Of a stretch of 46,691 nt of DNA, positions 7,273-46,691 are shown piece by piece (within the stretch, counting starts at the first letter, position 1; each line of letters begins with the position of its first letter). This DNA comes from Nitrospirota bacterium (GTDB lineage: Bacteria; Nitrospirota; JACRHL01). The position numbers and the translations under genes were made by a program. The DNA is taken from NCBI GenBank assembly GCA_029881725.1, contig JAOUMB010000019.1, positions 1-46,691 on the forward strand, written 5' to 3'. Below the pieces are notes generated by a model. The model did not search any database. It saw only the letters and a program-made list of their open reading frames with translations, and was not told where the DNA came from.

Positions 7273-8211
7273 CTAGCCGCGGGGGTGATACCGCCGGTGC
7301 ACCTCCTTGAGCCGCTCGCGGGATACATGGGTATAGATCTGGGTGGTGCCGATATCCACGTGCCCGAGCAGTGCCTGCACCACCCGCAGGTCCGCGCCTC
7401 CCTCCAGCAGATGGGTGGCGAAGGTATGGCGGAGGGTGTGCGGGGAGATGCGCCGGATGCCGCACCGGTCGCCCCGCGCGCGCAGCATGTGCCAGCAGTT
7501 CTGGCGGGTCATCCCGCTGCCCCGGCGGCTCAGGAACAGGTGCGGCGAGGCGCTCTTTCCGGTCAGTTTCGGGCGGGCGTGGCGCAGGTATTCCGTCACC
7601 CGCTGGCGGGCGGCCATGCCCACCGGAACCCACCGTTCCTTGTCCCCCTTGCCGCACACCCGCAGCCGCCCGGCGGACAGGTCCAGACCGTCGAGGGTCA
7701 GGGTCACGGTTTCCGAGACGCGCAGACCCGCCGCGTACATCAGTTCCACAATGGCCAGATTGCGCAGGCCGAGCGGTCCGTCCTCCAGGGCCGGGTCCAG
7801 CAGCCGGTCCATATCCTCCAGGGACAGGGCATCGGGCAGGGGGCGCCAGGGGCGCGGTGTGCTCAGCCCGGCCACCATGTCGTCCGGGGTGCCTTCCGTG
7901 GCCGCCAGATGGCGCACGAAACCGCGCACCGCCGAGGCCGCGCGCCGCACCGAGGACGGGGCCTGCCCCTGCCCGGTGAGCCACCCCAGGTGATCCTCCA
8001 GCCGGTTGCGGGTCAGCCCCTCCGCCTGCTCCACTCCCAGGCCGGTGGCCCACCGCGCCAGGCGCTCCAGATCATGCCGGTATCCGGCGGCGGTGTGGGC
8101 CGACAGGCGGCGCTCCGCAAGCAGGTGATCCAGATAATCGCGGATCGGTCCCGAAAAACCCGGAGGAATGGGAACCCGGTCCGGAGGCGGAATGTCTGGC
8201 GTGTTTGGCAT
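7273..8211 (-). CDS. xerD: Tyrosine recombinase XerD
   Basis: Site-specific recombinase of the XerCD/dif system, which resolves chromosome dimers at division. The 312 residues comprise an N-terminal SAM-like core-binding domain (about 20-105) and a C-terminal catalytic domain. All catalytic residues are visible: R164 (AAGLRVSE), K188, H258 and R261 (SPHTLRHTFATHLL), H284 (LLGHVDIGTTQIYTH) and the nucleophile Y293. It is a lone housekeeping gene with no adjacent integrase context, so XerD is far likelier than a mobile-element integrase. It diverges from the LpoA-like gene across 37 bp. Confidence 0.92.
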   Translation of the reverse strand: MPNTPDIPPPDRVPIPPGFSGPIRDYLDHLLAERRLSAHTAAGYRHDLERLARWATGLGVEQAEGLTRNRLEDHLGWLTGQGQAPSSVRRAASAVRGFVRHLAATEGTPDDMVAGLSTPRPWRPLPDALSLEDMDRLLDPALEDGPLGLRNLAIVELMYAAGLRVSETVTLTLDGLDLSAGRLRVCGKGDKERWVPVGMAARQRVTEYLRHARPKLTGKSASPHLFLSRRGSGMTRQNCWHMLRARGDRCGIRRISPHTLRHTFATHLLEGGADLRVVQALLGHVDIGTTQIYTHVSRERLKEVHRRYHPRG

Positions 8212-8248
8212 CGAATGCTATATTAGCTTCTCACCACGGACGGTGGGC

Positions 8249-10633: not shown

Positions 10634-10636
10634 CCG

Positions 10637-11350
10637 GTGGAGAACCTCGCGCGAACCGTGCAGACTGCCGCCGTGGTGGCATTGCCGCTGATGTTTGCGA
10701 TCACCCTGCACGAGGCCGCCCACGGATGGATGGCCGATCGAAAGGGCGACTCCACCGCCCGCATGCTGGGGCGGATTACCGCCAATCCGCTGGCGCACAT
10801 CGACCCGGTGGGGACCATTCTGATTCCGCTGGTGCTGCTGATTTCGGGAGCCGGATTTCTGTTCGGGTGGGCCAAACCGGTGCCGGTCAATTTTCCCGCC
10901 CTGCGTCGACCGCGCATCGACATGGCGTGGGTGGCCGTGGCCGGTCCCGGCGCCAACCTGCTCATGGCGCTGGCCGCGGCCAGCGTATGTCACGGGCTGG
11001 TGCTGGCCATGCCGGAACTGGCCGCCGTGCTGCGCTGGCCGCCGTTTGCCATGCCACAACAGATTCCGGAGGGCTTCAAAATCACCCTGCCGCTGCTGCT
11101 GATTTTCAAATGTGCGGTGGAGATCAACGTGTTGCTCATGTGCTTCAACCTGTTGCCGGTGCCTCCCCTGGATGGCGGTCGGGTGGCGGTCGGGCTGCTG
11201 CCGAAGGGGCCTGCCGAGACCCTGTCGCTGATCGAGCCGGTGGGCATCTTCGTGGTGCTGGCACTGATCTGGTTTGACCCGGGGGGGATCATGCACCAGT
11301 TGTTCTGGCCCGGCGTATTTGGCCTGGCGCGGTTGATGCTCGGGGGATAG
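10637..11350 (+). CDS. Site-2 protease family membrane metallopeptidase (M50)
   Basis: Polytopic zinc peptidase of 237 residues. The metal site is visible as HEAAH (H25, E26, H29) in the first helix, and the third ligand as NLLPVPPLDGGR near residue 171. There is no PDZ domain, so it belongs to the short, SpoIVFB/YwhC-like M50 group rather than RseP. Its substrate is unknown. The start is a GTG 3 bp after the upstream stop codon, so it is probably translated with the LpoA-like gene. Confidence 0.85.
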   Translation: MENLARTVQTAAVVALPLMFAITLHEAAHGWMADRKGDSTARMLGRITANPLAHIDPVGTILIPLVLLISGAGFLFGWAKPVPVNFPALRRPRIDMAWVAVAGPGANLLMALAAASVCHGLVLAMPELAAVLRWPPFAMPQQIPEGFKITLPLLLIFKCAVEINVLLMCFNLLPVPPLDGGRVAVGLLPKGPAETLSLIEPVGIFVVLALIWFDPGGIMHQLFWPGVFGLARLMLGG

Positions 11351-11391
11351 AAATGCGCAACAAATACTCAACAATTTGAAATTATTCCAGT

Positions 11392-11412
11392 TTTCGGCAG
11401 GTTATGCCGAAA
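11392..11412 (+). repeat. Perfect hairpin after the M50 peptidase gene
   Basis: TTTCGGCA (11392-11399), loop GGTTA, TGCCGAAA (11405-11412) form an 8-bp stem in an unusually AT-rich stretch (11351-11400) 41 bp after the stop. No T run follows, so it may be a Rho-assisted end or an RNA-stability element. The rest of 11413-11489 shows nothing I can name. Confidence 0.4.
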
Positions 11413-11489
11413 CGGTTGGATGTTCGCCTGCATGGAGGCAGGCGGCGTAAACGGGGCCGGGCACCAATGGAGCCGGTTTCGATGGAGTG

Positions 11490-11515
11490 GTAGCACGAAA
11501 TTTATAAATGTAGCA
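11490..11515 (-). promoter_or_regulatory. Operator copy A upstream of the porin
   Basis: On the minus strand this reads TGCTAC-ATTTATAAATTTCG-TGCTAC. It shares ATTT-TAAAAT-like centre and CGTGCTAC arm with copies at 11536-11562 and 13686-13714. It abuts the candidate -35 hexamer TTGACA (11516-11521). The three copies occur only around the nickel genes, which suggests a shared metal-responsive regulator such as NikR. Confidence 0.5.
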
Positions 11516-11544
11516 TTGACACCGTTCCGGTGGCGGTGTTACCT
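11516..11544 (+). promoter_or_regulatory. Candidate promoter of the porin gene
   Basis: TTGACA (11516-11521) is a perfect -35 hexamer. A 17-base spacer leads to TTACCT (11539-11544), a weak -10 that lies inside operator copy C. A repressor bound at copies A and C would flank or cover this promoter. Confidence 0.45.
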
Positions 11545-11562
11545 TTTATAAAAACGTGCCAC
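11536..11562 (+). promoter_or_regulatory. Operator copy C upstream of the porin
   Basis: GTGTTACC-N11-CGTGCCAC with an A/T-only centre (TTTTATAAAAA). It aligns with copy B before nikM (GTGTAGCC-N13-CGTGCTAC) in both arms and in the flanking CGCCCC/CGCTCC. It overlaps the weak -10 of the porin promoter. Confidence 0.5.
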
Positions 11563-11638
11563 GCCCCCGGGTTGGGGCAGTGGTCCCGTTGTGCGTGCAG
11601 GAGCCGTTGGGGTTCGGAAAATCCAAGGAGGAGTGGTA

Positions 11639-12775
11639 ATGGAATTCAGGAATTTTGCAGTTGCGGTGACCCTGGCCGCCGGTCTTGGTTTGGTTTCGGC
11701 GCCGGTGGCGGCGGCCGAGGCCGAGGAATCGGGGCGCATGGCCAACCTGGAGCATTTGGCGGAATCGCACCATGTTGAGATTGGTGCGGGCATGACCATC
11801 GTTGGACAAGGGGCGGATGGCCCCGCGAACGCCGATGGCGGGGTGACCTATTCGGTGGATGTGGCGTTGGAATCGGAGGTAGGTGATCTGGGTACGGCCT
11901 TCGTTTACATCAATACCTCCCAGGGAACGGGATTGTCGTTTGCCGACGCGCTTGGTAACGCGGTTTCTCCAAACGGTGGCTTCAACGCCGATGATGAGGG
12001 GGGGAATGTGACTGACGGTGGGTATGGAGATTCCCGTGTGGCCGAGGCGTGGTTGAAGATCCCGCTTGGAGGTGAAATGGCCGCCCTGACTGTCGGTAAG
12101 GTTGATGCGACCGGTATCTACGATGCCAACGAATATGCCAATGACGAAACCACCCAGTTTCTGGGTGATCCGTTTGTGAACAACATGGCGATCACCTTTC
12201 CCGGATATACCCTGGGTGCCAGTCTGGAAATTACCCCCACGGACGAATTGACGGTGAATGTCGGAGCCTTCGAGGCCGCCGGCGACTTTGCCGGTGCAAT
12301 GCGTGGTGGGGTGGTAATCGGCGAGGTTGCTTATGCCCATGACATGATGGGCGGAGGTAATGCCCGCTTCATCTACTGGCAGGCGGAAGACACGGACGCT
12401 GCGGCCGGTACGGTGCTTGACGAGAGCGGCTTCGCCGTAAACTTTGATCAGGTGGTCGCCGAGGGTGCCGGAGTATTCCTGCGGTATGGCGTGCGTGACG
12501 ACAACAATGCGACGCCGGGTGGTATCGACAGCGCTCTGAGCCTTGGTGGGCAATATGAGTTGGGTACTGGCGTGGTCGGCGTCGGTTACTCCATCCTGAC
12601 TGACGCGGCGGCCACCGCTGGAGACGACGAAAGCCAACTCGAAGTGTACTACAGCCACGAGGTGAGCGACTCGGTGCATATCACCGCCGACTTGCAGATG
12701 ATGTCCAGCCCGGAATTCAATTCCGCGAATGACGATATCACTGTGTTTGGTCTGCGCATGCAGGTGGACCTGTAA
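11639..12775 (+). CDS. Outer-membrane porin-like beta-barrel protein
   Basis: The start is the ATG at 11639, with AAGGAGGAG about 6 bases upstream. The 378-residue protein has a signal peptide (FAVAVTLAAGLGLVSAPVAAAEA) and then alternating hydrophobic/polar strands with Gly/Asp-rich turns, ending in VFGLRMQVDL. The pattern (AWLKIPLGGEMAALTVGKVD and later strands) resembles the OprB/LbtU-type porins. Its position directly before the DUF4198 and Nik transporter genes, under operators shared with them, suggests it admits nickel or a nickel chelate across the outer membrane. That substrate is an inference. Confidence 0.72.
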   Translation: MEFRNFAVAVTLAAGLGLVSAPVAAAEAEESGRMANLEHLAESHHVEIGAGMTIVGQGADGPANADGGVTYSVDVALESEVGDLGTAFVYINTSQGTGLSFADALGNAVSPNGGFNADDEGGNVTDGGYGDSRVAEAWLKIPLGGEMAALTVGKVDATGIYDANEYANDETTQFLGDPFVNNMAITFPGYTLGASLEITPTDELTVNVGAFEAAGDFAGAMRGGVVIGEVAYAHDMMGGGNARFIYWQAEDTDAAAGTVLDESGFAVNFDQVVAEGAGVFLRYGVRDDNNATPGGIDSALSLGGQYELGTGVVGVGYSILTDAAATAGDDESQLEVYYSHEVSDSVHITADLQMMSSPEFNSANDDITVFGLRMQVDL

Positions 12776-30793: not shown

Positions 30794-31474
30794 ATGTCAG
30801 CCGAGACCGATACCAAACTGGTCACCGTCGAAATCATGGGAAAGCAGTACCAGGTTCCCGACGCCATGACCGTGATCGGAACCATGTGGTACACCGGTCA
30901 CAACATCATCCGCGGCGTGGGCTGTCTGGGTGGTGTGTGTGGCGCGTGCTCCACCGTGTACCGCACCAAGGACGATTTTGCCCTCAAGGTGGGTCTGGGT
31001 TGCCAGATGAAGATTGAGGACGGCATGAGCTTTTTCATGACGCCGTTCTATCCGACCGCCAAGCCCAACTACAACGTGCAGGAGATCGAGCACCCCAAAG
31101 AGGAACTGTTCCGCTACTTCCCGGAGGCGCTCAATTGCCGGAACTGCAACGCCTGCAACAAGGTGTGCCCGCAGGATATCGACATCAAGGGCGCGGTGAA
31201 GGATGCGGTCAAGGGAGACTTCGAAGCAGCCGCCGACAAGGCCCTGTCGTGCGTCATGTGCGGTCTGTGCGTGTCGCGCTGCATCGCTGAGATGGCGCCC
31301 AACATGATCGCCCTCTATGCCCGCCGCACCTGGAGTGTGTTCTACGCCACCAAGCACGAGCGGCTCGACCAGCAGATGAAGCAGATCACTGACGGCGTCT
31401 GGAACGACGAGTGGGACCAGATATCCCAGCTGGATGAGGCGGGGCTCAAGGAATTTTGCAAGGCCCGCCGCTAA
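30794..31474 (+). CDS. 2Fe-2S/4Fe-4S protein, SdhB/FrdB-HdrC-like (paralogue 2)
   Basis: Its 226 residues have the same architecture as paralogue 1: GCLGGVCGAC plus GLGC for a 2Fe-2S cluster, then CRNCNACNKVCPQDI and CVMCGLCVSRC for two 4Fe-4S clusters. It directly precedes the flavoprotein, 17 bases apart, and so is the more likely permanent partner. Unlike canonical SdhB it has no 3Fe-4S-type ligand set; all three motifs are complete. This favours low-potential chemistry such as fumarate reduction or ferredoxin-linked transfer over quinone reduction. Confidence 0.83.
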   Translation: MSAETDTKLVTVEIMGKQYQVPDAMTVIGTMWYTGHNIIRGVGCLGGVCGACSTVYRTKDDFALKVGLGCQMKIEDGMSFFMTPFYPTAKPNYNVQEIEHPKEELFRYFPEALNCRNCNACNKVCPQDIDIKGAVKDAVKGDFEAAADKALSCVMCGLCVSRCIAEMAPNMIALYARRTWSVFYATKHERLDQQMKQITDGVWNDEWDQISQLDEAGLKEFCKARR

Positions 31475-31491
31475 TGGGCCCGGAGACACGC

Positions 31492-33108
31492 ATGGATTCA
31501 TTGCTGGAAAAATACATCGGGGTCATCGAGGCCACCCGGGACAAACGTATCGCACAGGCCATGCCGCTGATGCGCGAGGCGGACAAGGAGCACCTGCTCA
31601 CCGCCCACCACCCGGACTATCGCAAGGAGGCCTATCGGCCCATTGCCTTCGGTCCCAATCAGGGTGAGGAAACGGTGCATGAACTGGCCGCCCTGCTGGA
31701 GGCCGACAGCCCGCTCAGCGTCGCCCCGGCAGGCCTCGCCAAGCCTGATTTTGAAGTGGATGTGCTGATCCTGGGTGGCGGTGGCGCCGGTGCCACCGCG
31801 GCGCTGATGGCCCGGGAACTGGGCGCCAGCGTGATGATTGCCACCAAACTGCGCTTGGGCGATTCCAACACCGTGATGGCCGAGGGCGGCGTGCAGGTGG
31901 CGGTCAAGGAGGACGACTCCCCCATCCAGCACTTTGTGGATGCCATGCACGGCGGCCACTACAAGAACGATCCGCGCCTGCTGAAGGTGATGGTGGAGGA
32001 CGCCCCATTCTCCATCAACTGGCTGGACTCGCTGGGGGTGCTGTTCGACCGGGATGCGGACGGCAACCTGAAGGTCAAGAAGGGCGGCGGCACCAGCCGC
32101 GCGCGCCTGCTGGCCTGCAAGGACTACACCGGTCTGGACATGATGCGGGTGCTGAAGGACACGGTGCTCAACACCGAGGGCATCCAGATCATGGAGTTTG
32201 CCCCGGCCATTGAGTTGCTCACCAATTCCAACGGTCAGGTAACCGGCGCGGTGCTGCAAAACCTGGACGTGGACCAGCGCATCGTGGTGCGTGCCAAGAG
32301 CGTGATCATGGCCACCGGAGGCATCGGTCGCCTGCACATTCAGAATTTCCCCACCAGCAACCACTTCGGCGCCACCGGCGACGCACTGCCACTGTGCTAC
32401 CGGCTGGGCGCCCGGCTGGCCTTCCCCGGCACCTTCCAGTACCACCCCACCGGAGCCATCTATCCGGAGCAGATGGCGGGCCTGCTGGTGACCGAGGCCA
32501 TCCGTTCCGGCGGCGCCCACCTGATCAACAGGAACGGCGAGCGGTTCGTCAATGAACTGGAGGCGCGTGACGTGGTGTGTGCCGCCATCATCCGCGAATG
32601 CGCCGAAGGGCGCGGGGTGGATACGCCGTTTGGCCGTCAGGGGGTTTGGCTGGACATTCCGGTGATCGACGCCATGAACGGCGAGGGAGTGGTCAAGCGC
32701 CGCTACCCGGGCATGCTGCGCAAGTATGAACGGCACGGCATCGACATCCCCACTCAGCCGGTGCTGATCTACCCCACCCTGCACTATCAGAACGGCGGCG
32801 TGGCCATCGGCACCGAGGGTGAAACCGAGATTGCCGGGCTGTATGTGGCCGGTGAGGCGGCGGGCGGGATTCATGGCACCAATCGCCTGATGGGCAACTC
32901 GTTGCTGGACATTATCGTTTTTGGTGCGCGGGCGGGCAGAGCGGCTGCCCAACGCGCCACGGAGGTGGATTTCGGGGAATTGACCCTGAACCACCTGGAT
33001 GCCTTCCGCAAACAGATGAAGAAGGCGGGCGTCGAGCCTACCCGAACCTCCCCCATGCTGCTGCCCGATTATGTGCGGCGGCCCGAGGAGGCGGTCGGCT
33101 CGGCCTGA
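31492..33108 (+). CDS. frdA: Fumarate reductase/succinate dehydrogenase flavoprotein subunit
   Basis: The ATG at 31492 follows CCCGGAGA; an ATG at 31474 overlapping the previous stop lacks a ribosome site. The protein (538 aa) has an N-terminal extension of about 90 residues before the FAD-binding VLILGGGGAGATAALMA, the segment HYKNDPRLLKVMVEDAP, the substrate loop QYHPTGAIYPEQMAGLLVTEAIRSGG and GEAAGGIHGTNRLMGNSLLD. No SdhC/SdhD membrane anchor genes are next to it, so the enzyme is probably soluble or uses another docking protein. L-aspartate oxidase is less likely given the FeS partners and sucCD. Confidence 0.85.
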   Translation: MDSLLEKYIGVIEATRDKRIAQAMPLMREADKEHLLTAHHPDYRKEAYRPIAFGPNQGEETVHELAALLEADSPLSVAPAGLAKPDFEVDVLILGGGGAGATAALMARELGASVMIATKLRLGDSNTVMAEGGVQVAVKEDDSPIQHFVDAMHGGHYKNDPRLLKVMVEDAPFSINWLDSLGVLFDRDADGNLKVKKGGGTSRARLLACKDYTGLDMMRVLKDTVLNTEGIQIMEFAPAIELLTNSNGQVTGAVLQNLDVDQRIVVRAKSVIMATGGIGRLHIQNFPTSNHFGATGDALPLCYRLGARLAFPGTFQYHPTGAIYPEQMAGLLVTEAIRSGGAHLINRNGERFVNELEARDVVCAAIIRECAEGRGVDTPFGRQGVWLDIPVIDAMNGEGVVKRRYPGMLRKYERHGIDIPTQPVLIYPTLHYQNGGVAIGTEGETEIAGLYVAGEAAGGIHGTNRLMGNSLLDIIVFGARAGRAAAQRATEVDFGELTLNHLDAFRKQMKKAGVEPTRTSPMLLPDYVRRPEEAVGSA

Positions 33109-33110
33109 TT

Positions 33111-33150
33111 TCCGGCCCGCGCCGTGGGGCGCGGGAATCCGGATTGTTGT
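33111..33150 (+). terminator. Terminator-like hairpin after the flavoprotein gene
   Basis: TCCGG-CCCGCGCC (33111-33123), loop GTGG, GGCGCGGG (33128-33135), three bulged bases, CCGGA (33139-33143), then TTGTTGT. The 13-bp stem is strong but the T run is broken, so termination is probably partial before sucC. Confidence 0.4.
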
Positions 33151-33231
33151 GCGTGCAAACCGGCAGCCGCCGGGTGGGGTGTTGGTCAGTGTCCCCCACC
33201 GGTTTGAGGCCGCCCAGGAGCAAAGGGACGG

Positions 33232-34392
33232 ATGAACGTTCACGAGTATCAAGCCAAGGAAATTCTGAAGGGCTACGGCGTTGCCGTGCCGGAGGGCGGA
33301 GTGGCCCATACCCCGGACGAGGCGGTCAAAGCCGCACAGATGCTGGGTGGTCCGGTATGGGTGGTGAAGTCCCAGATCCATGCGGGCGGTCGCGGACTGG
33401 CCGGGGGCGTCAAGGTGGTCAAGTCCATCGACGACGTGAGGAAAGAGGCGGAGCGCATGCTCGGCATGACCCTGGTGACCCACCAGACCGGCCCCGAGGG
33501 CAAGGAGGTGCAGCGCGTCTACATCGAGGACGGCTGTGACATCGCCCGCGAACTGTATCTGGGTGCGGTGATCGACCGCGAGCACGGCGGCGTGACCATC
33601 ATGGCCTCCACCGAAGGTGGCATGGAAATCGAGGAGGTGGCTGCCCACTCCCCGGAGAAGATTCTCAAGGAAAAGGTGGATCCGGCGGTGGGCCTGCAGC
33701 CGTTCCAGTGCCGCAATTTGGCCTTCCAACTGGGGCTGGAGGGGGGACAGATCAAGTCGTTCTCCAAGTTCATGAGCGCCCTGTACACCGCCTTTGTGGA
33801 AACGGACGCCGCCCTGCTGGAGATCAACCCGCTGGTGGTGACCGGTTCCGGCGACGTGTTGGCCCTGGACGCCAAGCTGAACTTCGATTCCAACGCCCTG
33901 TACCGCCATCCGCAGATCGAAGCCCTGCGCGACCTGAGCGAGGAGGATCCGAAGGAGCTGGAAGCCAGCCGCCACGGCCTCAACTACATCGCCCTGGACG
34001 GTAATATCGGCTGCATGGTGAACGGCGCGGGCCTGGCCATGTCCACCTTGGACATCATCCAGCTCAAGGGCGGAACCCCGGCCAACTTCCTGGACGTGGG
34101 TGGCGGCGCCAATGCCGACCAGGTGCGTGAGGCATTCAAGCTGATCCTGTCGGACAGCAACGTGAAGGCCATCCTGATCAACATCTTCGGCGGCATCATG
34201 CGCTGCGACATCATTGCCCAGGGCATTATCGAAGCCGCCAAGCAGATCAATGTGCATGTGCCGCTGATCGTGCGCCTGGAAGGAACCAATGTGGAGCAGG
34301 GCAAGAAGCTGCTGGCGGAGAGCGACGTGGACGTCATCGCTGCCGATAACCTGAACGACGCTGCCGAAAAGGCCGTGGCTGCGGTCGCCTAA
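33232..34392 (+). CDS. sucC: Succinyl-CoA synthetase beta subunit
   Basis: ADP/GDP-forming subunit of 386 residues beginning [17 protein letters not shown]. The ATP-grasp region has [38 protein letters not shown] (metal-binding) and the C-terminal CoA-ligase part with [19 protein letters not shown]. It is paired with sucD 12 bp downstream. It can run in either direction, making succinyl-CoA for a reductive TCA cycle or ATP in the oxidative one. Confidence 0.97.
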
Positions 34393-34404
34393 GGGGAATT
34401 TGTA

Positions 34405-35277
34405 ATGAGTGTACTGGTAAACAAGAATACGAAGGTCATCTGTCAGGGCTTCACCGGTGCCCAGGGCACCTTCCACTCCGAGCAGGCCATCGCCTACGGC
34501 ACCCGGATGGTCGGCGGCGTGACCCCCGGCAAGGGCGGGGCCGAACACCTGGGCTTGCCGGTGTTCAACACCGTGGCCGATGCGGTCAGGACCACTGGCG
34601 CGGACGCCACCATGATTTACGTTCCGCCCCCCTTCGCCGCGGACGCCATCATGGAGGCCGCCGCCGCGGAGATTCCGCTCATCGTGTGCATTACCGAGGG
34701 CATTCCGGTGATGGACATGGTGGCGGTCAAGCGCTACCTGTCCGGTCGTAAAAGCCGCCTGATCGGCCCCAACTGCCCGGGGGTGATCACCCCGGACGAG
34801 TGCAAGATCGGCATCATGCCGGGGCACATCCATAAGCGTGGCAACATCGGTATCGTCAGCCGCTCCGGCACCCTGACCTACGAAGCGGTCAAGCAGACCG
34901 CCGACGCGGGGCTGGGCCAGAGCACCTGCATCGGCATCGGTGGGGACCCGGTCAATGGCACCAACTTCATTGACTGCCTGGAGATGTTCCAGAACGATCC
35001 AGAGACCGAGGGCATCATCATGATCGGTGAGATCGGCGGGAGTGCCGAGGAGGAAGCCGCCGAGTACATCAAGGCCCACGTGAAGAAGCCGGTGGTCAGC
35101 TTCATCGCCGGTGCCACCGCACCTCCGGGACGCCGCATGGGCCATGCCGGGGCGATCATCGCCGGTGGCAAAGGTGGTGCCGAGGACAAGTTCAAGGCGC
35201 TCGAGTCCGCCGGGGTGGCCACTGTGCGCAACCCGACCGAACTCGGCATCCGCATGAAGGAGGTGCTGGGGGGGTAA
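34405..35277 (+). CDS. sucD: Succinyl-CoA synthetase alpha subunit
   Basis: The 290-residue protein has the CoA-binding Rossmann domain ([19 protein letters not shown], then [17 protein letters not shown]), [21 protein letters not shown], and the phosphohistidine loop [17 protein letters not shown] near residue 246. All are typical of SucD. It is cotranscribed with sucC and followed 41 bp later by the FeS genes, so the enzyme is embedded in an electron-transfer operon. Confidence 0.97.
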
Positions 35278-35318
35278 CCCCCGGCACGGCCTTGCAAGGG
35301 GCCGCTCGGAAAGCAAGC

Positions 35319-36281
35319 ATGATCTATTCCACCGGGTATCACGCCCTGAAACGCTACGCGTCCGCTGAAGAGGTGGTCGTGGATGCCAAGTCATGGCTGG
35401 AGGAGGGCCGCATCGGCATGCTGGTGTGCTACAGCCGCCAGAGCCCGTTTACGGAACTGACCATGCCCAACTTCCTCAACCGCCCCGAGATGCTCGACTC
35501 GGAGGTGGTGTGGAACTCCTTCTGCGATTACAACCTGCTGGGGTACGCCAACATGGGCCCCAAGGAGGCGGCGCGGGGTCGTGGTGGCGTGGCCATCGTG
35601 GTCAAGCCGTGCGAGTTGCACAACCTGGACATCCTCACCGAGGAAGGGTCCATGTCCGGCATCAGCCGGGACAACGTGCTGCCGATGGTCATGCGCTGCG
35701 AGGGCGTGTATGAGACCAAGGGCCTCAACAACTACACCGCCAAGGACGCCGCCCCGAACGTGCAGACCAAGTGCCTGGACTGCCCGGAATACCTGACCGC
35801 CCACGGGGACGAGGCGGTGGCCAGGGAAAAGGCGGAGCGCACCGATTACCAGGCCTACCGGGCGGCCATTGACGACGATGCGGGGATGGACTGGGGCATG
35901 ACCCTGGACAAATGCCTGCACTGCTATGCCTGCCGCAACATCTGTCCGAGCTGTTACTGCACCAACGGCTGCCCGGCGGACGAGGCGGCCACTACCCATG
36001 TGACCAGCGCCCTGAAAATGATCAAGGGCATCGATGCCAGCAGTCAGTTGGTCTACAACCTGGTACGCACCTGGCACATTCAGGCCCGTTGTTCCGAATG
36101 TCAGGAGTGTGAACGGGTGTGTCCGGTGGGCATCCCGATCATGGCCCTGAAGGCCAAGCTGGGACGCGATTTCGCGGGTGAGGGAAGCCCTGGCGACGTG
36201 ATCGGCTTCCTGACCGACTTTGCGGAAAAGGTCATTCAGCCCAAGGGCGAGCGGTGGCCGCCGGAGGAGCCGAAGGAGTGA
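35319..36281 (+). CDS. Multi-cluster iron-sulfur protein, FdhB/Hdr-like electron-transfer subunit
   Basis: The ATG at 35319 gives 320 residues. The first half contains VVKPCELHNLDILTEEG, a segment shared with AsrA/HydB and FrhB-type flavin/FeS subunits. The second half has CLHCYACRNICPSCYC and CSECQECERVCPVG, two 4Fe-4S motifs with extra Cys, and KCLDCPEYL between. This arrangement recalls the FeS subunits that feed heterodisulfide-reductase-like or formate-dehydrogenase modules. It is immediately upstream of, and overlaps, the AsrA-like gene, and likely forms a complex with it. Confidence 0.75.
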   Translation: MIYSTGYHALKRYASAEEVVVDAKSWLEEGRIGMLVCYSRQSPFTELTMPNFLNRPEMLDSEVVWNSFCDYNLLGYANMGPKEAARGRGGVAIVVKPCELHNLDILTEEGSMSGISRDNVLPMVMRCEGVYETKGLNNYTAKDAAPNVQTKCLDCPEYLTAHGDEAVAREKAERTDYQAYRAAIDDDAGMDWGMTLDKCLHCYACRNICPSCYCTNGCPADEAATTHVTSALKMIKGIDASSQLVYNLVRTWHIQARCSECQECERVCPVGIPIMALKAKLGRDFAGEGSPGDVIGFLTDFAEKVIQPKGERWPPEEPKE

Positions 36282-37363
36282 AGCTGGCCGGAACCATCCG
36301 CCCGCAGGGGCTTTGGGCACTGGTGGACCACCTGACCGGGCAGGGGGTGCGTGTGGTCGCGCCGACACTGATCGACGGCCTGTGCCAGTTTGGCCCGGTC
36401 GACTCCGCCGACCAGGTGGTTAAGGACTACCTGCTGCCGCAGAACACCTTCAAGGAATTTCTGTTTCCAAAAGAGGAGCGGGTTTTTACCTGGCTCAAGC
36501 GGGAGGACGGAAGCTTTGTTGTCGACCAGCCGTCCCGTGACTTTCCGGAAACCGTCATTCTGGGGGGGCGTCCCTGCGATGCCGCCGCCATTGGTGTATC
36601 GCTCAGGAGCGTCTTTTCCGGCGACAAGTTCGAGCATGCCGACCCCCTTTTCCTGGAACGCTTCGAGCGCACCACCGTGGTATCGGTGAGCTGTGACCGG
36701 CCCGACCTGTCGTGCTTCTGTACCACCATGGGGCTCGGTCCGGACGATCCCACCGGCAGTGACGTGCTGATCACCGCCACCGGACTGGACGGGGAACTGG
36801 TGGTGGAGGTTGGCTCTCCCAAGGGTGAGAAATTCGCCCAGCGCCTGGGCAGTCATCTGGTCACCGGCCAGCCGGAAACCGAACTGCGCGAACGCCGCAG
36901 CCAGGCCGGGGCGGAGGCCAGGAAAAAATTTGTGCGGGTGTTCGATATCGAGCACGTAAAAAGCTTCCTGGACAATCCGGACAATTTCGACGACGAGATG
37001 TTCGCGCGGCTGGGTACCAAGTGTGTATCCTGCGGCGTGTGCACCTTTGAGTGCCCTACCTGTCACTGCTTCGATTTCAAGGATCTGGGCGGAACCGAGG
37101 GGGGGGAGCGGGTGAAGGTGTGGGATTCCTGCCAGTTCCCCGTGTTCACCGTGCACGCCACCGGGCACCAGCCCCGGCCCGATCAATGGCAGCGTTACCG
37201 CAACCGGTTTCTGTGCAAATTCAAGATCTACGAGGACGTGTTCGACAACCTGGGCTGCACCGGTTGCGGCCGTTGTGTGCGCGACTGTCCGGTACACGTG
37301 GACATCACCAGTTACGCCATGCAGGCCAACAAAAAACAGCAGTTGATTCAGGTGACCCCGTGA
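36278..37363 (+). CDS. AsrA/HydB-like 4Fe-4S dicluster protein
   Basis: The GTG at 36278 overlaps the previous stop, with GAAGGA upstream. The 361-residue protein has LGGRPCDAAAIGV and SCDRPDLSCFCTTMGLGP (about 145-160), typical of the beta subunit of sulfhydrogenase/anaerobic sulfite reductase A, then CVSCGVCTFECPTCHC and CTGCGRCVRDCPVHVDI near the C-terminus. Such subunits carry electrons between a NAD(P)H diaphorase and a catalytic partner. No hydrogenase or siroheme sulfite reductase genes are nearby, so the partner is probably the fumarate reductase-like or other FeS enzyme. Confidence 0.82.
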   Translation: MKLAGTIRPQGLWALVDHLTGQGVRVVAPTLIDGLCQFGPVDSADQVVKDYLLPQNTFKEFLFPKEERVFTWLKREDGSFVVDQPSRDFPETVILGGRPCDAAAIGVSLRSVFSGDKFEHADPLFLERFERTTVVSVSCDRPDLSCFCTTMGLGPDDPTGSDVLITATGLDGELVVEVGSPKGEKFAQRLGSHLVTGQPETELRERRSQAGAEARKKFVRVFDIEHVKSFLDNPDNFDDEMFARLGTKCVSCGVCTFECPTCHCFDFKDLGGTEGGERVKVWDSCQFPVFTVHATGHQPRPDQWQRYRNRFLCKFKIYEDVFDNLGCTGCGRCVRDCPVHVDITSYAMQANKKQQLIQVTP

Positions 37364-38256
37364 GTGCTCCCGCCCTGCATACCGCCCCCGGAGCCGAGGC
37401 CGCGAATCTGTATGTTCCCAAGCTGGTGCGGATCCGAAAGATCATCCGCGAAACCCACGATGTGAACACCCTGCAACTGGAGTTCGTCGATCCGGCGCAC
37501 GCCGCCTCGTTTACGTACAAGACCGGCCAGTTCGGCGAATTTTCCATCTTCGGGGTGGGCGAGGCCACCTTCAACATCTCCTCCTCCCCCAACTGGGAGG
37601 GATTCTTTGAGTGCTGCTTCCGCAAGGTGGGGGTGGTCACCACCGCCTTGGCCAAGATGAAGGAGGGCGATATCATCGGCTTCCGCGGCCCCTACGGAAA
37701 CAGCTACGACCTGGAGGGGATGCACGGCAAGGATCTGATCTTTGCCGCTGGCGGGATCGGCTTTCCGCCCATCCGCTGCCTGGTGCACCGGGTGCTGGAG
37801 GAGCGTGACAAGTTCGGTGCCGTGGTCATTGTACATGGGGCCCGGACGCACCGTGATCTGGTCTATCAGCGAGAGATGGACGAGTGGACCAGACGGCGCG
37901 ACATCCATATGATCAAGACCGTCGATCCTGGAGGCGACCCGGAAAACTGGGACGGCGAGGTAGGCTTCGTTCCCACGGTGCTGGAGGAGCGGGTGCCGTG
38001 GATTCTGGAGCGGGAGGGGAAGGGTGCGTCCAACGCCCTGGCCTTCACCTGTGGACCTCCGGTGATGACCAAGTTTGTGATCGCTGCCCTGGGCCGCATG
38101 GGCGTGGGACCGGATCAGGTGGTCATGACCCTGGAAAATAAAATGAAATGCGCGGTGGGCAAGTGCGGCCGGTGTAATATCGGCAATACCTATGTCTGCT
38201 TGGAAGGTCCGATCTTCACCGCCGCGCAGGTACAGGCCATGCCGGCCGACCAGTAA
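37360..38256 (+). CDS. AsrB/HydG-like FAD/NAD(P)-binding oxidoreductase
   Basis: The GTG at 37360 overlaps the previous stop by four bases. The 298-residue protein has a ferredoxin-reductase-like FAD domain (GQFGEFSIFGVGEATFNISS), an NAD-binding domain (DLIFAAGGIGFPPIRCLVHR, then AFTCGPPVMTKFVI) and a C-terminal 2Fe-2S motif CAVGKCGRCNIG followed by a fourth Cys in TYVCLEGP. This is the diaphorase (gamma) partner of the preceding AsrA/HydB-like protein. Together they should interconvert NAD(P)H and low-potential FeS electrons. Confidence 0.87.
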   Translation: MSAPALHTAPGAEAANLYVPKLVRIRKIIRETHDVNTLQLEFVDPAHAASFTYKTGQFGEFSIFGVGEATFNISSSPNWEGFFECCFRKVGVVTTALAKMKEGDIIGFRGPYGNSYDLEGMHGKDLIFAAGGIGFPPIRCLVHRVLEERDKFGAVVIVHGARTHRDLVYQREMDEWTRRRDIHMIKTVDPGGDPENWDGEVGFVPTVLEERVPWILEREGKGASNALAFTCGPPVMTKFVIAALGRMGVGPDQVVMTLENKMKCAVGKCGRCNIGNTYVCLEGPIFTAAQVQAMPADQ

Positions 38257-40076: not shown

Positions 40077-41840
40077 TTACCGGTCCGCGCCGTCCGGCGA
40101 GCCCACCAGCAGGTAGCCGCGCAGCGACCTGACCACGGGCACGTCTTGCATCAGGCGCCCCTCGATCCGCTCCACATACAGACGCACGCGCAGTGTGTTG
40201 TTATGCGCCTCCAGGGTCATCCTGGGTCCGGGCACCACCGGGGTCATCCCCGCTTTCCTCCGGCCGCCATTCAGGCGGGTAAGGTCGATCTCCACGGCCT
40301 GTTCCGGCAGGCCGTCGCGCCACACCTTCAGGACCGTACCCTTTACCGCAAAGGTGACATCGCCGCCGGAGGTGGAAAAGGTCCGGAGGCTGGTGCAGGA
40401 ATCGCATCGGGTGAGCGGCAGCAGGGTGTCGTATCCGGTTACCTCCACGCCGTCCTCGAAATCACCGGTGTGCAGTGCGAACCACTTGCCCAAGCGCATG
40501 GGTTCCGGCTCCGTGAGCATGTCCCAGGTGGTGGCGTCCGTCTTTTCCTCTGTAAATCCGTACCGGGCCAGCCACGCCTGATAGGCGTCCTGCTTGGGAT
40601 CGGCCTGCAGGTATTTCGCCACTGACCGGATGCGCTCTCGCACATCGGCCACCGGGAGTGCGCCGACAGAAGCTTCCCCCGGCAGGTCGCCGTGGGCCGT
40701 CAGCAGGGCCTCCAGTTGCGCCAGCTGGCTGCGGGTAGAAACCGGCCCCGCGCCCCACGGCCCGAAACAGGCCAGCAACAGCAGCGCCGCCAGCGCCGCC
40801 GGGGCCACCATCAGACGCGGCGGGCGCGCCAGGTTTCCGTATGCGGCCAGCCCCGCCAGCCACACGGCGAGCAGCAGCAGTCCGTAGCGGGATTCGGTGA
40901 CGCCATACGCGCCCATTCGCTCCAGCGCGGCGGTGGTCAGCAGCAGCACCGGCACCGGCAGCGCCAGCGGGAACCACCGCCCCCACAGGCGCAGCAGGCG
41001 GTTGTCCCCCTCGCGCCACGGCCACGCAGCCAGCCAAGCGGCCACGCCAAAGGCGGCGAAACAGGCGATGGTCCAGCCGGTCCTGCCCTCCGGCAACTGC
41101 CAGCGCACCAGCGACAACACGGCAAAGGCATGTATCAGCACTCCATACACTACCGCCAGCGGCACCAGCATCCCGGTCACCAACCACCGCTCCGCGCGTG
41201 GCGGGCGGGAATCCGGCGGGGTGAACCCGCGCGGGATTCCCGCCAACGCCAGCCACGCGGCACCGGTGCCGAGACAGCCGAACCAGATCAACCGCGTCAC
41301 CCACTGTTCCGGGTTGGCGTCAAACAGTACCTTCAGGCCCGAGACCAGCGCCACCAGTCCTGCCGCGGCCACCAGTGCCACCACCAGCGCCAGCCCCATG
41401 TGACGGAGGGAAACAGCCACGAATTGCCATGCAGCGCGGTCGTCCACTCCGCGCCTCAGGAACGGCGCGCAGATGGCGGCCAGAAAGGCGGTGGGCATGG
41501 CCAGCCACCAGCGGGCGGTGACCACGTTTTCCGGTCCTCCCAGCGCACCCCACGGAAACAATGCCACCAGCCCGGCACCACCCGTTGCGGCAAGGATGCC
41601 CGCCCACGATCGCCAGCCCCGGCTTTCCGCCAGCAGGTGTGCCGCCAGCGAGGCGAACAGGGCCGCTGGCAGATACAGTGATGCCTGCCCCCGGAGTTCG
41701 TACGGGAGGGAATGCCCGGCATTCGTCATCACTGCCGTCCACGCCACCGCGCATAGCAGCGGCAGGGGAAATCGCAGCGGCACGCGCAGGGCTTGTTGCG
41801 CGAATCCGCGCAGCCGGGATGCCGGCGTGGATGCGTCCAT
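40077..41840 (-). CDS. DUF4153-type multi-pass membrane protein
   Basis: The 587-residue protein has about ten to twelve hydrophobic helices in its first 370 residues (for example GLALVVALVAAAGLVALVSG and FPLALPVPVLLLTTAALERMGAYGVTESRYG) and then a soluble C-terminal domain of about 200 residues with a CDSC motif. The helix containing ERMGAYGVTESRY is the landmark of DUF4153 proteins, whose function is unknown. AGGA lies about 9 bases upstream of the ATG, inside the end of the small frameshifted gene. It is last in the minus-strand operon of the giant repeat protein. Confidence 0.75.
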   Translation of the reverse strand: MDASTPASRLRGFAQQALRVPLRFPLPLLCAVAWTAVMTNAGHSLPYELRGQASLYLPAALFASLAAHLLAESRGWRSWAGILAATGGAGLVALFPWGALGGPENVVTARWWLAMPTAFLAAICAPFLRRGVDDRAAWQFVAVSLRHMGLALVVALVAAAGLVALVSGLKVLFDANPEQWVTRLIWFGCLGTGAAWLALAGIPRGFTPPDSRPPRAERWLVTGMLVPLAVVYGVLIHAFAVLSLVRWQLPEGRTGWTIACFAAFGVAAWLAAWPWREGDNRLLRLWGRWFPLALPVPVLLLTTAALERMGAYGVTESRYGLLLLAVWLAGLAAYGNLARPPRLMVAPAALAALLLLACFGPWGAGPVSTRSQLAQLEALLTAHGDLPGEASVGALPVADVRERIRSVAKYLQADPKQDAYQAWLARYGFTEEKTDATTWDMLTEPEPMRLGKWFALHTGDFEDGVEVTGYDTLLPLTRCDSCTSLRTFSTSGGDVTFAVKGTVLKVWRDGLPEQAVEIDLTRLNGGRRKAGMTPVVPGPRMTLEAHNNTLRVRLYVERIEGRLMQDVPVVRSLRGYLLVGSPDGADR

Positions 41841-42071: not shown

Positions 42072-45000
42072 CTAAAACCCGAAAATTAACAGGTCACCGG
42101 TGCCGTCGGGTCGGGTGCGGTGGCCGATGATGCCGAACAGGGCCCACCATTCACGCACCTTGCCGGTGTCATCCCGATCCCAGCCGAACAGGGGATTGAA
42201 CTCGAAGCTGCTTCCGTTGGCGTTGCGATCCCAGTAGATCAGCCGCCACAGGAAGCGGAACCGGGATTCGTCTCCGTTTTTCCGATAGGAGACCAGACTC
42301 AGCATTGGGTCCGGGTTTTGCCGGTATGTGGCCGAGCGGTCGATGGAGAACAGGGGCCACAGCACCGAGAATGCCTTGCGCCCGGCAGCGGGTTCCGCCT
42401 GGTAGCCGTACAGGGGGAACAGCCGGTCCTTGATCGTGCCGCGCTCGCTCAGATGGTGATACAGGCTGAGTTGCGGGATACCCAGGGTGATAATGCCCCG
42501 TGCGTCCCGGTCGAATGTGGTGTTTTTATCGTGATAGTAGAACGGCAGGGCGGTGGTGCGCAGCCGGTCCGGGGTGTTGAGGCGCGAATAGAACGGCAGG
42601 AACTGGGTACGGGTGGTGGTTCCGGTCACCTCGCGGGAGTAGAGCAGGGCGCGGAACTTCCTGCGGTCGTGGGTCGGATCGTTCCTCCACGATACCAGCC
42701 CTGCCGCCGCCCATCCCTCATTCAGCCCGGTGTCCCGGTTGCCGGTATGCCGATAGAGGGGAAACAGGCGATGGGTTACCTCGCTTCCCTCGCGGGCGTA
42801 GCGCCAGACGGAGATTTCCGGATGGATCAGCCACAGCACCGAGTGGGCCGACAGGTCCATCAGTGGATCGTGTTCCCCATGGTAAAGCAACGGAATGGCG
42901 GTGGAGGAGGCTTCGCCGTTGCGGGTGTGCCACCAGAGCGGTAGCAGTGCGGTGCGCTGATAATTGCCTTCCCGCCGATTTTCAAACAACAGCACGCGGG
43001 TCAGTGAGAAATCGCGGGTCGGGTCGGTTTGGTGGGCGATCAGGCCCCCCAGACTGTTCCATCCCCGGGCACCGGTCCGGTGGTTGGACGTGTAGCCATA
43101 AACCAGTGGAATGCGGTGACGGGTGTACTCCGGGTTGGACTGTTTGCGCCACAGGCTTATTTCCGGGTGGATCAGCCACACCAAAGCGGTGTCCTTCCAC
43201 TGGTCCACCGGGTTGCGCGCGTGGCGGTACAGCAGCGGTATGGAGTCGGTTACCGTGTCGCCGCGTTCGGTGCGCCACCACACCGGAAGCAGCATGCGGA
43301 AGTCGCGCTCGGGATTTTTTCGTCGGTAATAGAGCAGGGCATTGACGGAAAGGGTGCCTGCCTGCGGATCCCGCGCATACCAGGTGAGGGGCGGCACGAT
43401 GCCCCAGCGCAGCACACCGGTGGCGTGGTTGCGATGGTAACTGTAGAGCGGGAACAGCCGGTGGGCGGTGCGCTCGGGGCCAAAGCGGGAACGCCACAAG
43501 GACAGTTCCGGGCTGCCCAGCCACAAGGCTGAAAAGGCGGTCTCGCCACTTACCCGGTCACGCCGGTAGTGGTGCAACAGGGGTGACAGGTCGGTAATCC
43601 GTTCCGGGGTGCGCTCGTGCCACCAGAACGGGAGTGCCCAGGCGCGGGAGTTTTCCCCCTGCCGCTCTCCATGGCCCAGACCGAATATGGCGCTCCACGA
43701 CGTCAGATCCTTTTCCTGATCCCGCAGGGTGGTAAACAGCGGCCCGAGGAAATACTGGCGCCGGTGCCCTTCATTGCGCTGGATGCGACTGTAGAGGGGG
43801 AACAGGTGCAATTGGCTGCGGTCCTGCTCGCGCCAGGACCAGTACAGGGGGAATACCACGCGCAGGGAATTGTCGGTTCCGGCACTATACCAGTAAAGGG
43901 GCAGTGCGCGGGTGTGCCGGTGATCCGGTCCGGAGTCGTGATGGAACAGGGGCCACAGCACATCCCACCCGACGGTGCCCATGGTGGTGTCCTTATAGCG
44001 GGCATAGAGGGGGAAGAACAGCAGGTGGCGTGAATAATGCTGCCCTTGCCGGTAGGTGCCGTAAAACGGAAACCAGTAGGTCAACTCCCGATCCAGCGCG
44101 CGGTCTTTCATGTGCCAGTAAAAAGGGAATTGCACGGTAAAGTCGCGTTCCGGGGTGCGGTTGTCGAACCACAGGGCGGGCAGGGCGACCGTGAACCGGG
44201 AACCCGTCCCGGAGTCGCGCAGGTCCAGCGCCAGTGGAAACAGCACGCGGGTGCGGCGGGTGCCGGTTTCGGTCCGGGTGGCCGTGTCGAACCAAAACGG
44301 GGTAATGAAGCGGCTGTGGCCGTTCGCGCGGCGCTGGTTCAGGTAGAACGGCAGCAGCATGGTCAGGCCGGTGCCATCCACCTTTTCTCCCTGGTGCCAC
44401 AGGGGGAAAACTCCTTTGTGGCGGCCCGCTTCATTTTCCCGCCAGTAGTACAGTCCCGCGTAGCCACTGCGGCTGCCGTCTGCGCTGGTGCGGGAATAGG
44501 CCAGTGGAAACAGGCCTCGAGAGGTGCCGTCCGCGTTCTTTTTCCAGAAATAGAGCCCGGCAAAGCCGAACGTATCACCCCCCGCACCGGCGTGCATATA
44601 CCAGAGGGGCGGCAGGGTGTTGGTGATGTTCTCACCCACCCGCTTGCGGTAGAACAGGAGGGCCTGGGTGATCACCCGATCCCCTTCCGGATCGCGTTCG
44701 TAGCGGAATAACGGTCCCAGCATCGACCACCCGACCGCTCCGGTGGCCAGATTGCGGTGTTGTCTGTACAGGGGGAACACACCGCGCGAACGCAGGTCGC
44801 CCTTGCGTTTCCAGTAGTAGAGGGTGGCAAAGCCATGGGCGTCGCCATTGGCGTCGAGGTGAGCGTACCAGAGGGGTGGCAGGGTGTTGGTAACCGCTTC
44901 GCCTGTGCGTTCGCGGTAGAACAGCAGGGCGCGAGCGGCCACCCGGTCGGCGGCGGGGTCGCGCTGATAGCTGAACAGGGGGCCAAGCATGGAAAAGGAG

Positions 45001-45962
45001 CGTGCTCCCGTATCCCGTTGTGCCCGATAGCTGTAAATGGGGAACAACCGGTGGTGCAGGCGGGTGTCGGAAGCCTTCAGGCGAAACAGACTGATCTCCG
45101 GATGGATCAGCCATGGCGTGGCGAACTCTGTAATGTTGGGGCCTTTTCTGAAGTGATACAGGGGCATCAGTCCGTCGGTAACGGCGTCCCCTTTCCGTTC
45201 GTGGGACCACAGAGGGAACAGGCCGGTGCGGCTGTGCGACGGAGCACGGTTCCAATAGAACAGGGTGAAAAATCCACGGGAATGGTCCGGGCCGGCGTTA
45301 CGCATGTAGACGGGCAGCACGTTTTGACTGACCACGCCGTTCCGTTCCGCAAAGTGGACAATGGGCCATGGCAGGTGGCGTTCATAGCCGCCGTCCACGT
45401 AGCGACGCCAGCGGAACAGGGGATACATAAACCCCGCCTCCCGGTATTCATCCTGCTTTTCAATGCGGCTGTAAAAGGGCCACACATGCAGGGAGTCGTA
45501 CCCGGGGTGCTGGTTGTGGAAGTAGAACGGTGCCAGCATGCGCGAGCGGTAATCGGGCCCCCACCGGTGCCGGTACAGGGGAAAGGCGTAGGACCTTCCG
45601 TAATCTCCCCGGCGATCGAAGGACGAAAGCGGCCACAGAATATTCAGGCGGCGGAATTCGCGGGCCGGGTCGGTGGCCAGAGAATAGAAGGGGCGCACCC
45701 CGTGGTAGGTGAATGTCCCGTCGCGTTCATAGTGATAAAAGGGGAACAGGATATCGATATTGGTGCGTTCCGGGCCGACGGTACCGGACACCAGCGGCCA
45801 CGGATGCAGGCGGCGGGTGTCACCGGGAGAGACGGCGGAGGCGGTGGCGGCACACAGGGACAGGAGTAACAGTGCCGCGATCAGGAGCAGCACCGCATGG
45901 ATTCCCCGCCCCGGGCGGGTGCCGCCCGTCGGGAAGTGCATATCGTGCCATCGCCCCGCCAT
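42072..45962 (-). CDS. Giant secreted aromatic-repeat protein (1296 aa), possible outer-membrane barrel
   Basis: A basic N-terminus and a hydrophobic segment (IHAVLLLIAALLLLSLCAAT, about 21-40) ending TASA form a signal peptide. The rest is made almost wholly of degenerate 18-25-residue units of the type LFPLYSYHRNHATG: alternating aromatic strand, basic/aspartate turn, Gly. Higher-order copies exist: units anchored at P818, P933, P1048 and P1163 (PELSL, PEISL, PEISV, PQLSL) are exactly 115 residues apart, and two copies anchored at M325 and M414 (MLGPLF) are 89 apart. The protein ends LLIFGF, with alternating hydrophobics and a terminal Phe like a BAM beta-signal. I know no named family. A surface or barrel role is inferred. 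Confidence 0.85.
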   Translation of the reverse strand: MAGRWHDMHFPTGGTRPGRGIHAVLLLIAALLLLSLCAATASAVSPGDTRRLHPWPLVSGTVGPERTNIDILFPFYHYERDGTFTYHGVRPFYSLATDPAREFRRLNILWPLSSFDRRGDYGRSYAFPLYRHRWGPDYRSRMLAPFYFHNQHPGYDSLHVWPFYSRIEKQDEYREAGFMYPLFRWRRYVDGGYERHLPWPIVHFAERNGVVSQNVLPVYMRNAGPDHSRGFFTLFYWNRAPSHSRTGLFPLWSHERKGDAVTDGLMPLYHFRKGPNITEFATPWLIHPEISLFRLKASDTRLHHRLFPIYSYRAQRDTGARSFSMLGPLFSYQRDPAADRVAARALLFYRERTGEAVTNTLPPLWYAHLDANGDAHGFATLYYWKRKGDLRSRGVFPLYRQHRNLATGAVGWSMLGPLFRYERDPEGDRVITQALLFYRKRVGENITNTLPPLWYMHAGAGGDTFGFAGLYFWKKNADGTSRGLFPLAYSRTSADGSRSGYAGLYYWRENEAGRHKGVFPLWHQGEKVDGTGLTMLLPFYLNQRRANGHSRFITPFWFDTATRTETGTRRTRVLFPLALDLRDSGTGSRFTVALPALWFDNRTPERDFTVQFPFYWHMKDRALDRELTYWFPFYGTYRQGQHYSRHLLFFPLYARYKDTTMGTVGWDVLWPLFHHDSGPDHRHTRALPLYWYSAGTDNSLRVVFPLYWSWREQDRSQLHLFPLYSRIQRNEGHRRQYFLGPLFTTLRDQEKDLTSWSAIFGLGHGERQGENSRAWALPFWWHERTPERITDLSPLLHHYRRDRVSGETAFSALWLGSPELSLWRSRFGPERTAHRLFPLYSYHRNHATGVLRWGIVPPLTWYARDPQAGTLSVNALLYYRRKNPERDFRMLLPVWWRTERGDTVTDSIPLLYRHARNPVDQWKDTALVWLIHPEISLWRKQSNPEYTRHRIPLVYGYTSNHRTGARGWNSLGGLIAHQTDPTRDFSLTRVLLFENRREGNYQRTALLPLWWHTRNGEASSTAIPLLYHGEHDPLMDLSAHSVLWLIHPEISVWRYAREGSEVTHRLFPLYRHTGNRDTGLNEGWAAAGLVSWRNDPTHDRRKFRALLYSREVTGTTTRTQFLPFYSRLNTPDRLRTTALPFYYHDKNTTFDRDARGIITLGIPQLSLYHHLSERGTIKDRLFPLYGYQAEPAAGRKAFSVLWPLFSIDRSATYRQNPDPMLSLVSYRKNGDESRFRFLWRLIYWDRNANGSSFEFNPLFGWDRDDTGKVREWWALFGIIGHRTRPDGTGDLLIFGF
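42132..43511 (-). repeat. Four in-register copies of a 115-residue (345-bp) coding repeat
   Basis: Anchors PELSLWR, PEISLWR, PEISVWR and PQLSLYH recur at residues 818, 933, 1048 and 1163 of the giant protein. Each is followed by RLFPLY or RIPLVY about 15-20 residues later, then TG, then LLYYRR- or LLFENR-type strands. The exact spacing with diverged sequence indicates old tandem duplication without indels. Confidence 0.85.
44457..44990 (-). repeat. Two copies of an 89-residue (267-bp) coding repeat
   Basis: MLGPLFSYQRDP at residue 325 recurs as MLGPLFRYERDP at 414. ALLFYRERTGEAVTNTLPPL recurs as ALLFYRKRVGENITNTLPPL, and GVFPLYR (394) as GLFPLAY (483), each shifted by 89. Identity is much higher than among the 115-residue copies, so this duplication is more recent. 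Confidence 0.85.
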
Positions 45963-46082: not shown

Positions 46083-46691
46083 ATGGTCCGTTTCGCAACA
46101 TGTCCCAGGCTGGTTTCGGGGGCGCTTCCGATGCTGCTGTCCGCATTGCTGCTGTCCGCCTGTGCGCGCAATACGGAAGGTCCTGTGTTACCGGGAAAAG
46201 CGGGGCCGGAATATGCCACCCAGATTCCTCAGCCGAAACTGGACGGCAACCTGTCGGATGCATTCGGAAAACTGGGGCTGGACGGCCTGGAACTTCCCGC
46301 GATTCCCGAAATTCCCAGTGAATCGGCGCTGGCCGACCCGGCTCTGCTGGAGCGGGCGCTGAAGGCCTATCGTGAATTGGTGACCTTTGCCGATCGTCTG
46401 TTGCCGGTATTGGATCAGGCCCTGGAAGGACTGCGGGAAATGCTTGGCGAGATTCCACCCTCCAGCCCGGGGTCGCCCCCCTCCCTGTCCGACATGGTAG
46501 AGGCCGCCCGCGATCAAATGCAGTATTTGCGGGATCTTGCCGGTGAAATGGCTGCCATGCTGGATTTTCTGAAGCGCCGGGAGGGGCACTTTGCACCCGG
46601 AGGGTTGGCGCTGTCCTTCGAGTTTCCGGACGATGCCCGGGTCTATCGTGAGTTCCGCCGTCGGCTGGCGCTAATCAGCGAGCGGGTGGAG
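46083..46691 (+). CDS. Lipoprotein of unknown function, N-terminal part
   Basis: The ATG at 46083 is preceded by AAGGAG at a 5-base spacing. The signal peptide ends in the lipobox LLSAC (Cys27). After a Pro-rich linker (IPEIPSES) come long amphipathic helices (LLERALKAYRELVTFADRLL, DMVEAARDQMQYLRDL) that suggest a coiled-coil. The frame is still open at the window end after 203 codons. It is divergent from the giant repeat protein and may act with it at the envelope. Confidence 0.8.
   Translation, partial: MVRFATCPRLVSGALPMLLSALLLSACARNTEGPVLPGKAGPEYATQIPQPKLDGNLSDAFGKLGLDGLELPAIPEIPSESALADPALLERALKAYRELVTFADRLLPVLDQALEGLREMLGEIPPSSPGSPPSLSDMVEAARDQMQYLRDLAGEMAAMLDFLKRREGHFAPGGLALSFEFPDDARVYREFRRRLALISERVE

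Follow-up and report, generated by a model that had tools for sequence, protein, structure and literature searches.

Several kinds of protein are built as sheets a single layer thick, among them ApoB100, whose belt is a long, lipid-facing, antiparallel sheet, the RHS/YD shells of teneurins and Tc BC complexes, formed from tandem beta units of about 20 residues, and MORN proteins, which are mostly cytoplasmic and in which short tandem beta units make up an open sheet. Large outer-membrane barrels such as LptD and SprA form another all-beta group, with a signal peptide and about 17-20 residues per strand. Here we describe a bacterial protein that shares features with each of these systems and belongs to a rare, undescribed family of this broadly known kind, the single-layer beta repeat proteins.

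The window, that is, the whole 46,691-nucleotide stretch analysed here, is contig 25 of a 2.96-Mb Nitrospirota draft genome in which the gene for this protein is present in single copy. A preliminary description made from the DNA letters had proposed a secreted protein of aromatic repeats with an exact super-period, forming either a very large outer-membrane barrel or a long beta-solenoid. What it observed proved to be real, and was if anything somewhat understated, while its interpretation was half right. Our own leading interpretation, which we hold tentatively and at a little below even likelihood, is that the protein is a giant extracytoplasmic single-layer antiparallel beta-meander bearing an aromatic stripe, and that it acts as a binding scaffold in the cell envelope.

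A predicted exported protein made of tandem aromatic units

The reading frame and signal peptide of the proposed secreted protein were both borne out (Table 1). The signal peptide, judged by eye, is of type I with an A-S-A cleavage site, and the sole cysteine of the protein, residue 37, is preceded by leucine, placing it outside any lipobox. N-terminal segments resembling signal peptides are also found in the homologs. Since the genome encodes both LptD and TamB (the latter separately, on contig C36), the organism has an outer membrane; the window protein itself has no TamB/AsmA family match in Pfam. Its signal peptide suggests that the protein is exported and is periplasmic, associated with the outer membrane or exposed at the surface. 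While the GC-rich contig carries many long antisense frames, so that the frame could conceivably be degenerate or artefactual and yield no protein, this is extremely improbable: frame and motif are kept in homologs at 23-33% identity, codon GC is 78% at the third position as against 49% at position two, and both the signal peptide and the repeats are intact.

Table 1 Features of the repeat-protein gene and its downstream neighbour in the window
Feature	Position	Strand	Basis and remarks
DUF4153 membrane protein gene, downstream of the repeat gene	40077..41840	-	Pfam; adjoining, same strand
Repeat-protein ORF (P0001)	42072..45962	-	1296 aa, ATG start; frame kept in homologs of 603-1359 aa
Signal peptide, residues 1-43	45834..45962	-	Read from sequence; hydrophobic core AVLLLIAALLLLSL, then ATASA, with VSP after the predicted cut
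Tandem array, residues 49-1296, about 67 units of 16-26 residues (mode 17)	42075..45818	-	Segmentation with shuffle control; position-specific composition
Two tandem 89-residue blocks, residues 287-464, five units each, 51% identical	44571..45104	-	Self-comparison, segmentation, block identity
3.6 tandem 115-residue blocks, residues 777-1194, six units each, 33-36% identical, WLIHPEIS-type anchor	42381..43634	-	Autocorrelation, self-comparison, segmentation, block identity
Last predicted strand, ...TGDLLIFGF at the C terminus	42075..42113	-	Sequence

To delimit the units, we trained a position-specific model on the family and used dynamic programming to fit it along the chain. This segmentation yielded 67 units with a mean length of 18.5 residues, and a mean unit score of 6.8 compared with -2.0 for shuffled sequence; the tandem aromatic array described earlier therefore stands, but not its count and size of roughly fifty units of 18-25 residues. 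The spacing between units is exactly 17 residues in 30 of 66 cases, and lags 17, 115 and 34 are the strongest in the autocorrelation of the protein. Position-specific composition defines a core motif, [LVA][FL]P[LF][YW], in which two hydrophobic residues are followed by proline, leucine or phenylalanine, and tyrosine or tryptophan, and which is flanked by polar turns rich in Thr, Arg, Asp and Gly. The array is uninterrupted and runs to the last residue, and its final unit, of 27 residues, probably comprises two strands.

Both of the longer periods seen previously were recovered. Anchors of the type PEIS, PELS or PQLS lie at residues 818, 933, 1048 and 1163, exactly 115 apart, and ungapped self-comparison returned a lag-115 segment with a score of 458 (residues 777-1079 against 892-1194) and a lag-89 segment with a score of 310, compared with top scores of 36-44 in each of ten shuffles. 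Because identity between the blocks is low, both in the protein (Table 1) and in the DNA (47% between 115-residue blocks and 57% between 89-residue blocks), we take them to be old duplications.

A rare family with a patchy distribution

Searches of Pfam, PHROGs and PDB sequences gave no match, so that no solved structure in the PDB is a relative by sequence; no match was found in the plasmid records searched, and the literature, searched for LA_1737, for motifs of the LFPLY type and for repeat proteins in Nitrospira, yielded nothing relevant. The one family whose model is matched by the window protein and by all six homologs tested, with no other matched convincingly, is LA_1737_Cterm (NF047486), a function-unknown NCBIfam entry named after a Leptospira locus. 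However, none of the scores (31 bits and E 2e-7 for the window protein, 27-44 bits for the homologs) reaches the curated 60-bit cut-off, and the matches are partial over the 158-position model and fall at varying positions in the repeats. Apart from this sub-threshold match, the preliminary description was right that no named family has this design.

Relatives were located on eight Nitrospirota contigs through a degenerate DNA pattern for FEFNPxxPLY, and homologs are present in 20-22 of 379 Nitrospirota genomes, the number varying with query and threshold. Their hosts include Nitrospira sp. palsa_1310 and Candidatus Troglogloeales. The proteins segment into about 29 to 69 units, and the C-terminal region (FEFNP...W...G) ranks with the best-conserved parts of the family. 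The closest homolog, a protein of about 780 residues in genome G052, is 33% identical. Some genomes (G117, G137 and G147) have two copies of the gene, and it was not found in the other three genomes from the taxonomic family to which the window belongs. Most homologs, including those of loci L037, L038, L044, L045 and L050, carry a conserved segment with two cysteines, RxCxGLLWCxE, directly after the signal peptide; its absence from the window and G052 proteins divides the family into two subfamilies. The distribution is patchy and that of an accessory gene. In genome G130 a remnant with in-frame stops (C11:48297-48661) adjoins a gene for an Aas-like enzyme, and because this copy is decaying, the repeat gene seems to be dispensable there.

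Such a distribution, with its decaying copy, would also suit a surface adhesin or glycan-binding array, in which tandem aromatic units of about 18 residues, exported by a signal peptide, would form a hairpin solenoid with aromatics between the hairpins, as in choline- or glucan-binding repeats. We nevertheless judge this unlikely, as neither the window protein nor its homologs have a cell-wall-, choline- or glucan-binding family match in Pfam, no sorting signal or anchor was seen, and no solved structure matches.

Pairing of consecutive units

To assign strands to units, we drew on covariation, indels and unit lengths. For covariation, neighbouring 17-residue units from the window protein and its G052 homolog were pooled into a deep set (49 unit pairs, with the register chosen post hoc). 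Within it, the strongest signal lies in the antiparallel register i+j=-1, a level reached in 0 of 300 permutations, and extends to pairs on the unit's far side; none of the parallel registers reaches significance (p=0.2). In the window protein alone (n=29), antiparallel covariation falls below significance and a one-off parallel register reaches p=0.04; in the Nitrospira-type set, unit-unit covariation is confounded by unit classes.

Indels point in the same direction as the deep set. Strand-number parity across homologs is too error-prone to be of use, and we relied on clean indels alone, which between close homologs are mostly of 34, 43 or 45 residues, or two units. Odd changes are nonetheless tolerated, as seen in one single-unit indel and in the five-unit block of the window protein. 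In several Nitrospira-type members unit length alternates with a period of two; the window protein has no such alternation of short and long turns (p=0.74).

As consecutive units covary in antiparallel fashion and clean indels mostly span two units, a pair of units is more likely than a single unit to form a hairpin, and the earlier suggestion of one hairpin per unit is probably incorrect. A unit probably contributes a single kinked strand, two units making up the hairpin, although the evidence is moderate, with small numbers and post hoc tests. A hairpin within each unit had been considered on account of covariation around the proline (-3/+3 and -4/+4), but the signal was lost in the deep subset, and unit classes account for it best.

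On the interpretation that we favour, each unit of about 18 residues would be a beta-strand kinked at its central proline and followed by a polar turn; two units would make a hairpin, and successive hairpins would join into one giant antiparallel meander. The hydrophobic and aromatic centres of the strands would then lie side by side and form an unbroken aromatic stripe bordered by charged margins. Tandem duplication has lengthened the chain by blocks of units, two in the relatives and five and six in the window protein. We infer both the antiparallel sheet and the stripe along the strand centres.

Structure prediction and comparison with known folds

AlphaFold gave no usable model for residues 97-1296 of the window protein from an eight-sequence alignment (pLDDT 29). 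For the complete mature Troglogloeales homolog (1017 residues), the mean pLDDT was 57, with a better middle and 249 residues at 70 or more. This all-beta model has about 51 strand segments in 494 residues and no helix there. There are two strand segments per unit, often separated only at proline or by one residue, so that a kinked strand fits better than a turn. The structure prediction called for at the outset thus fell short for the window protein itself, while its homolog resembles single-layer meanders locally.

Foldseek comparison of the homolog model with the PDB placed ApoB100 first (E 7e-9), followed by teneurin (6e-6) and the Tc BC shell (4e-4); MORN proteins were among the named viral matches (1e-3). 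As global TM-scores to the best matches are low (0.05-0.17), only local architecture is informative. ApoB100, the best local match, is eukaryotic, has 7% identity over the alignment, which implies no sequence relation, and a global TM-score of 0.13. The matches to viral MORN proteins are weak, the motif is unlike theirs, and Pfam detected no RHS, YD or MORN family match at E<=1 in the window protein or its homologs. A beta-propeller was also considered for the model, with four strand segments per roughly 38 residues, but no propeller scored usefully in Foldseek.

The teneurin and Tc BC matches raise the alternative of a closed or spiral shell, in which short hairpins would surround a hollow interior as in RHS/YD cocoons. 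The unit length is similar and the homolog model has two short strand segments per unit, and yet, besides lacking an RHS/YD family match, the protein has no separate C-terminal cargo domain, the array running through to the last residue, and the Foldseek probabilities of the shell matches are just 0.1-0.3. We therefore regard a shell as improbable.

The outer-membrane barrel would have about 66-68 strands, one per unit, inserted by BAM; to our knowledge no single-chain barrel is larger than SprA, which has 36 strands, and the window protein would need about twice that number. Besides the signal peptide, a barrel would accord with the 17-19 residues per strand, which is normal for large barrels, and with weak Foldseek matches of the homolog model to LptD-type chains (E about 0.02-0.1). 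We compared the family with the barrel domains of E. coli LptD, FhuA, OmpF and BtuB, and with the LptD locus of the same genome. The density of barrel-like 9-mers in the window protein, 2.95 per 100, is inside the control range of 2.4-3.6 (1.3-2.2 in the homologs), but in other respects the composition and strand pattern of the family depart from those of the controls: lag-1 hydrophobicity autocorrelation is +0.12 to +0.23, compared with -0.16 to 0.00 in the five controls, and the pattern hhPhh occurs 1.8-3.3 times per 100 residues as against 0-0.18, about ten or more times as often. The positive correlation and frequent hhPhh together imply that both faces of the strand centre are hydrophobic and proline-bearing, and a barrel of such composition would have a hydrophobic lumen and proline in many of its strands. 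In addition, a five-unit duplication would flip strand direction, turns do not alternate in the window protein, and strand number would range from about 29 to 69 inside one family. The C-terminal phenylalanine likened earlier to that of BAM substrates is present, giving the window protein the expected aromatic end, but homologs finish in F, Y, L or D or in an extra polar tail. Taken together, these features disfavour a barrel, which we consider distinctly unlikely. For a parallel solenoid, the other fold first proposed, there is no good positive evidence, given the covariation described above and a Foldseek list with no solenoid among the top structure matches of the homolog model.

Gene neighbourhood and a possible link to lipids

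In the short Nitrospira clade, the repeat gene is followed immediately downstream by the Aas-like gene, on the same strand and with little or no gap. The latter combines an MFS transporter, an acyltransferase and an AMP ligase, the make-up of the lysophospholipid recycling type. Pairs were seen at L044:8086-14762 and L045:8887-15492, and at L047, L048, L054, L063, L065, L068, L070 and L071. At L041, a second, shorter repeat ORF (11065-12102) sits between the full repeat gene (7802-10702) and the Aas gene, which suggests gene duplication or fission.

Under the meander interpretation, the protein would serve the envelope as an accessory scaffold, its aromatic stripe acting as the binding site for a ligand that is either hydrophobic or a glycan; ligand and role are guesses, and lipid is the first guess because of the position of the repeat gene immediately before the Aas-type gene in these relatives. 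The lipid link is suggestive only, as nearly every Nitrospira has the enzyme, in most cases unaccompanied by the repeat gene, no Aas match was found in the window's genome, and the neighbour there is instead the DUF4153 gene. A more specific proposal, in which the protein is a bacterial extracytoplasmic lipid-binding beta-belt or bridge, an open single-layer antiparallel sheet of about 67 strands with a continuous aromatic stripe and a strand unit of 17 residues, comparable in action to the ApoB belt or to a bridge-like lipid carrier but related to neither, seems to us unlikely. If the stripe does bind lipid, it would be the bacterial equivalent of the belts of lipoproteins. If the anatomy alone is right, more than 60 strands, all from the same 17-residue unit, can be strung along one exported polypeptide, and the homologs offer a natural length series (603-1359 residues) for the folding, periplasm crossing and aggregation avoidance of very long beta-sheets.

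The DUF4153 gene, like the repeat gene, was not found in the three same-family genomes, and the two may therefore have arrived together at the contig end. Beyond the repeat gene, a divergent lipoprotein-like gene (46083-46691, plus strand) runs off the contig and has a weak PspM match (E 4e-4; 20 bits, against a cut-off of 80). Elsewhere in the window, a cluster at 31456-38256 encodes an FAD-binding oxidoreductase, an ATP-grasp CoA ligase, a 4Fe-4S protein and an NAD-binding oxidoreductase, and is perhaps part of a (reductive) TCA-type pathway.
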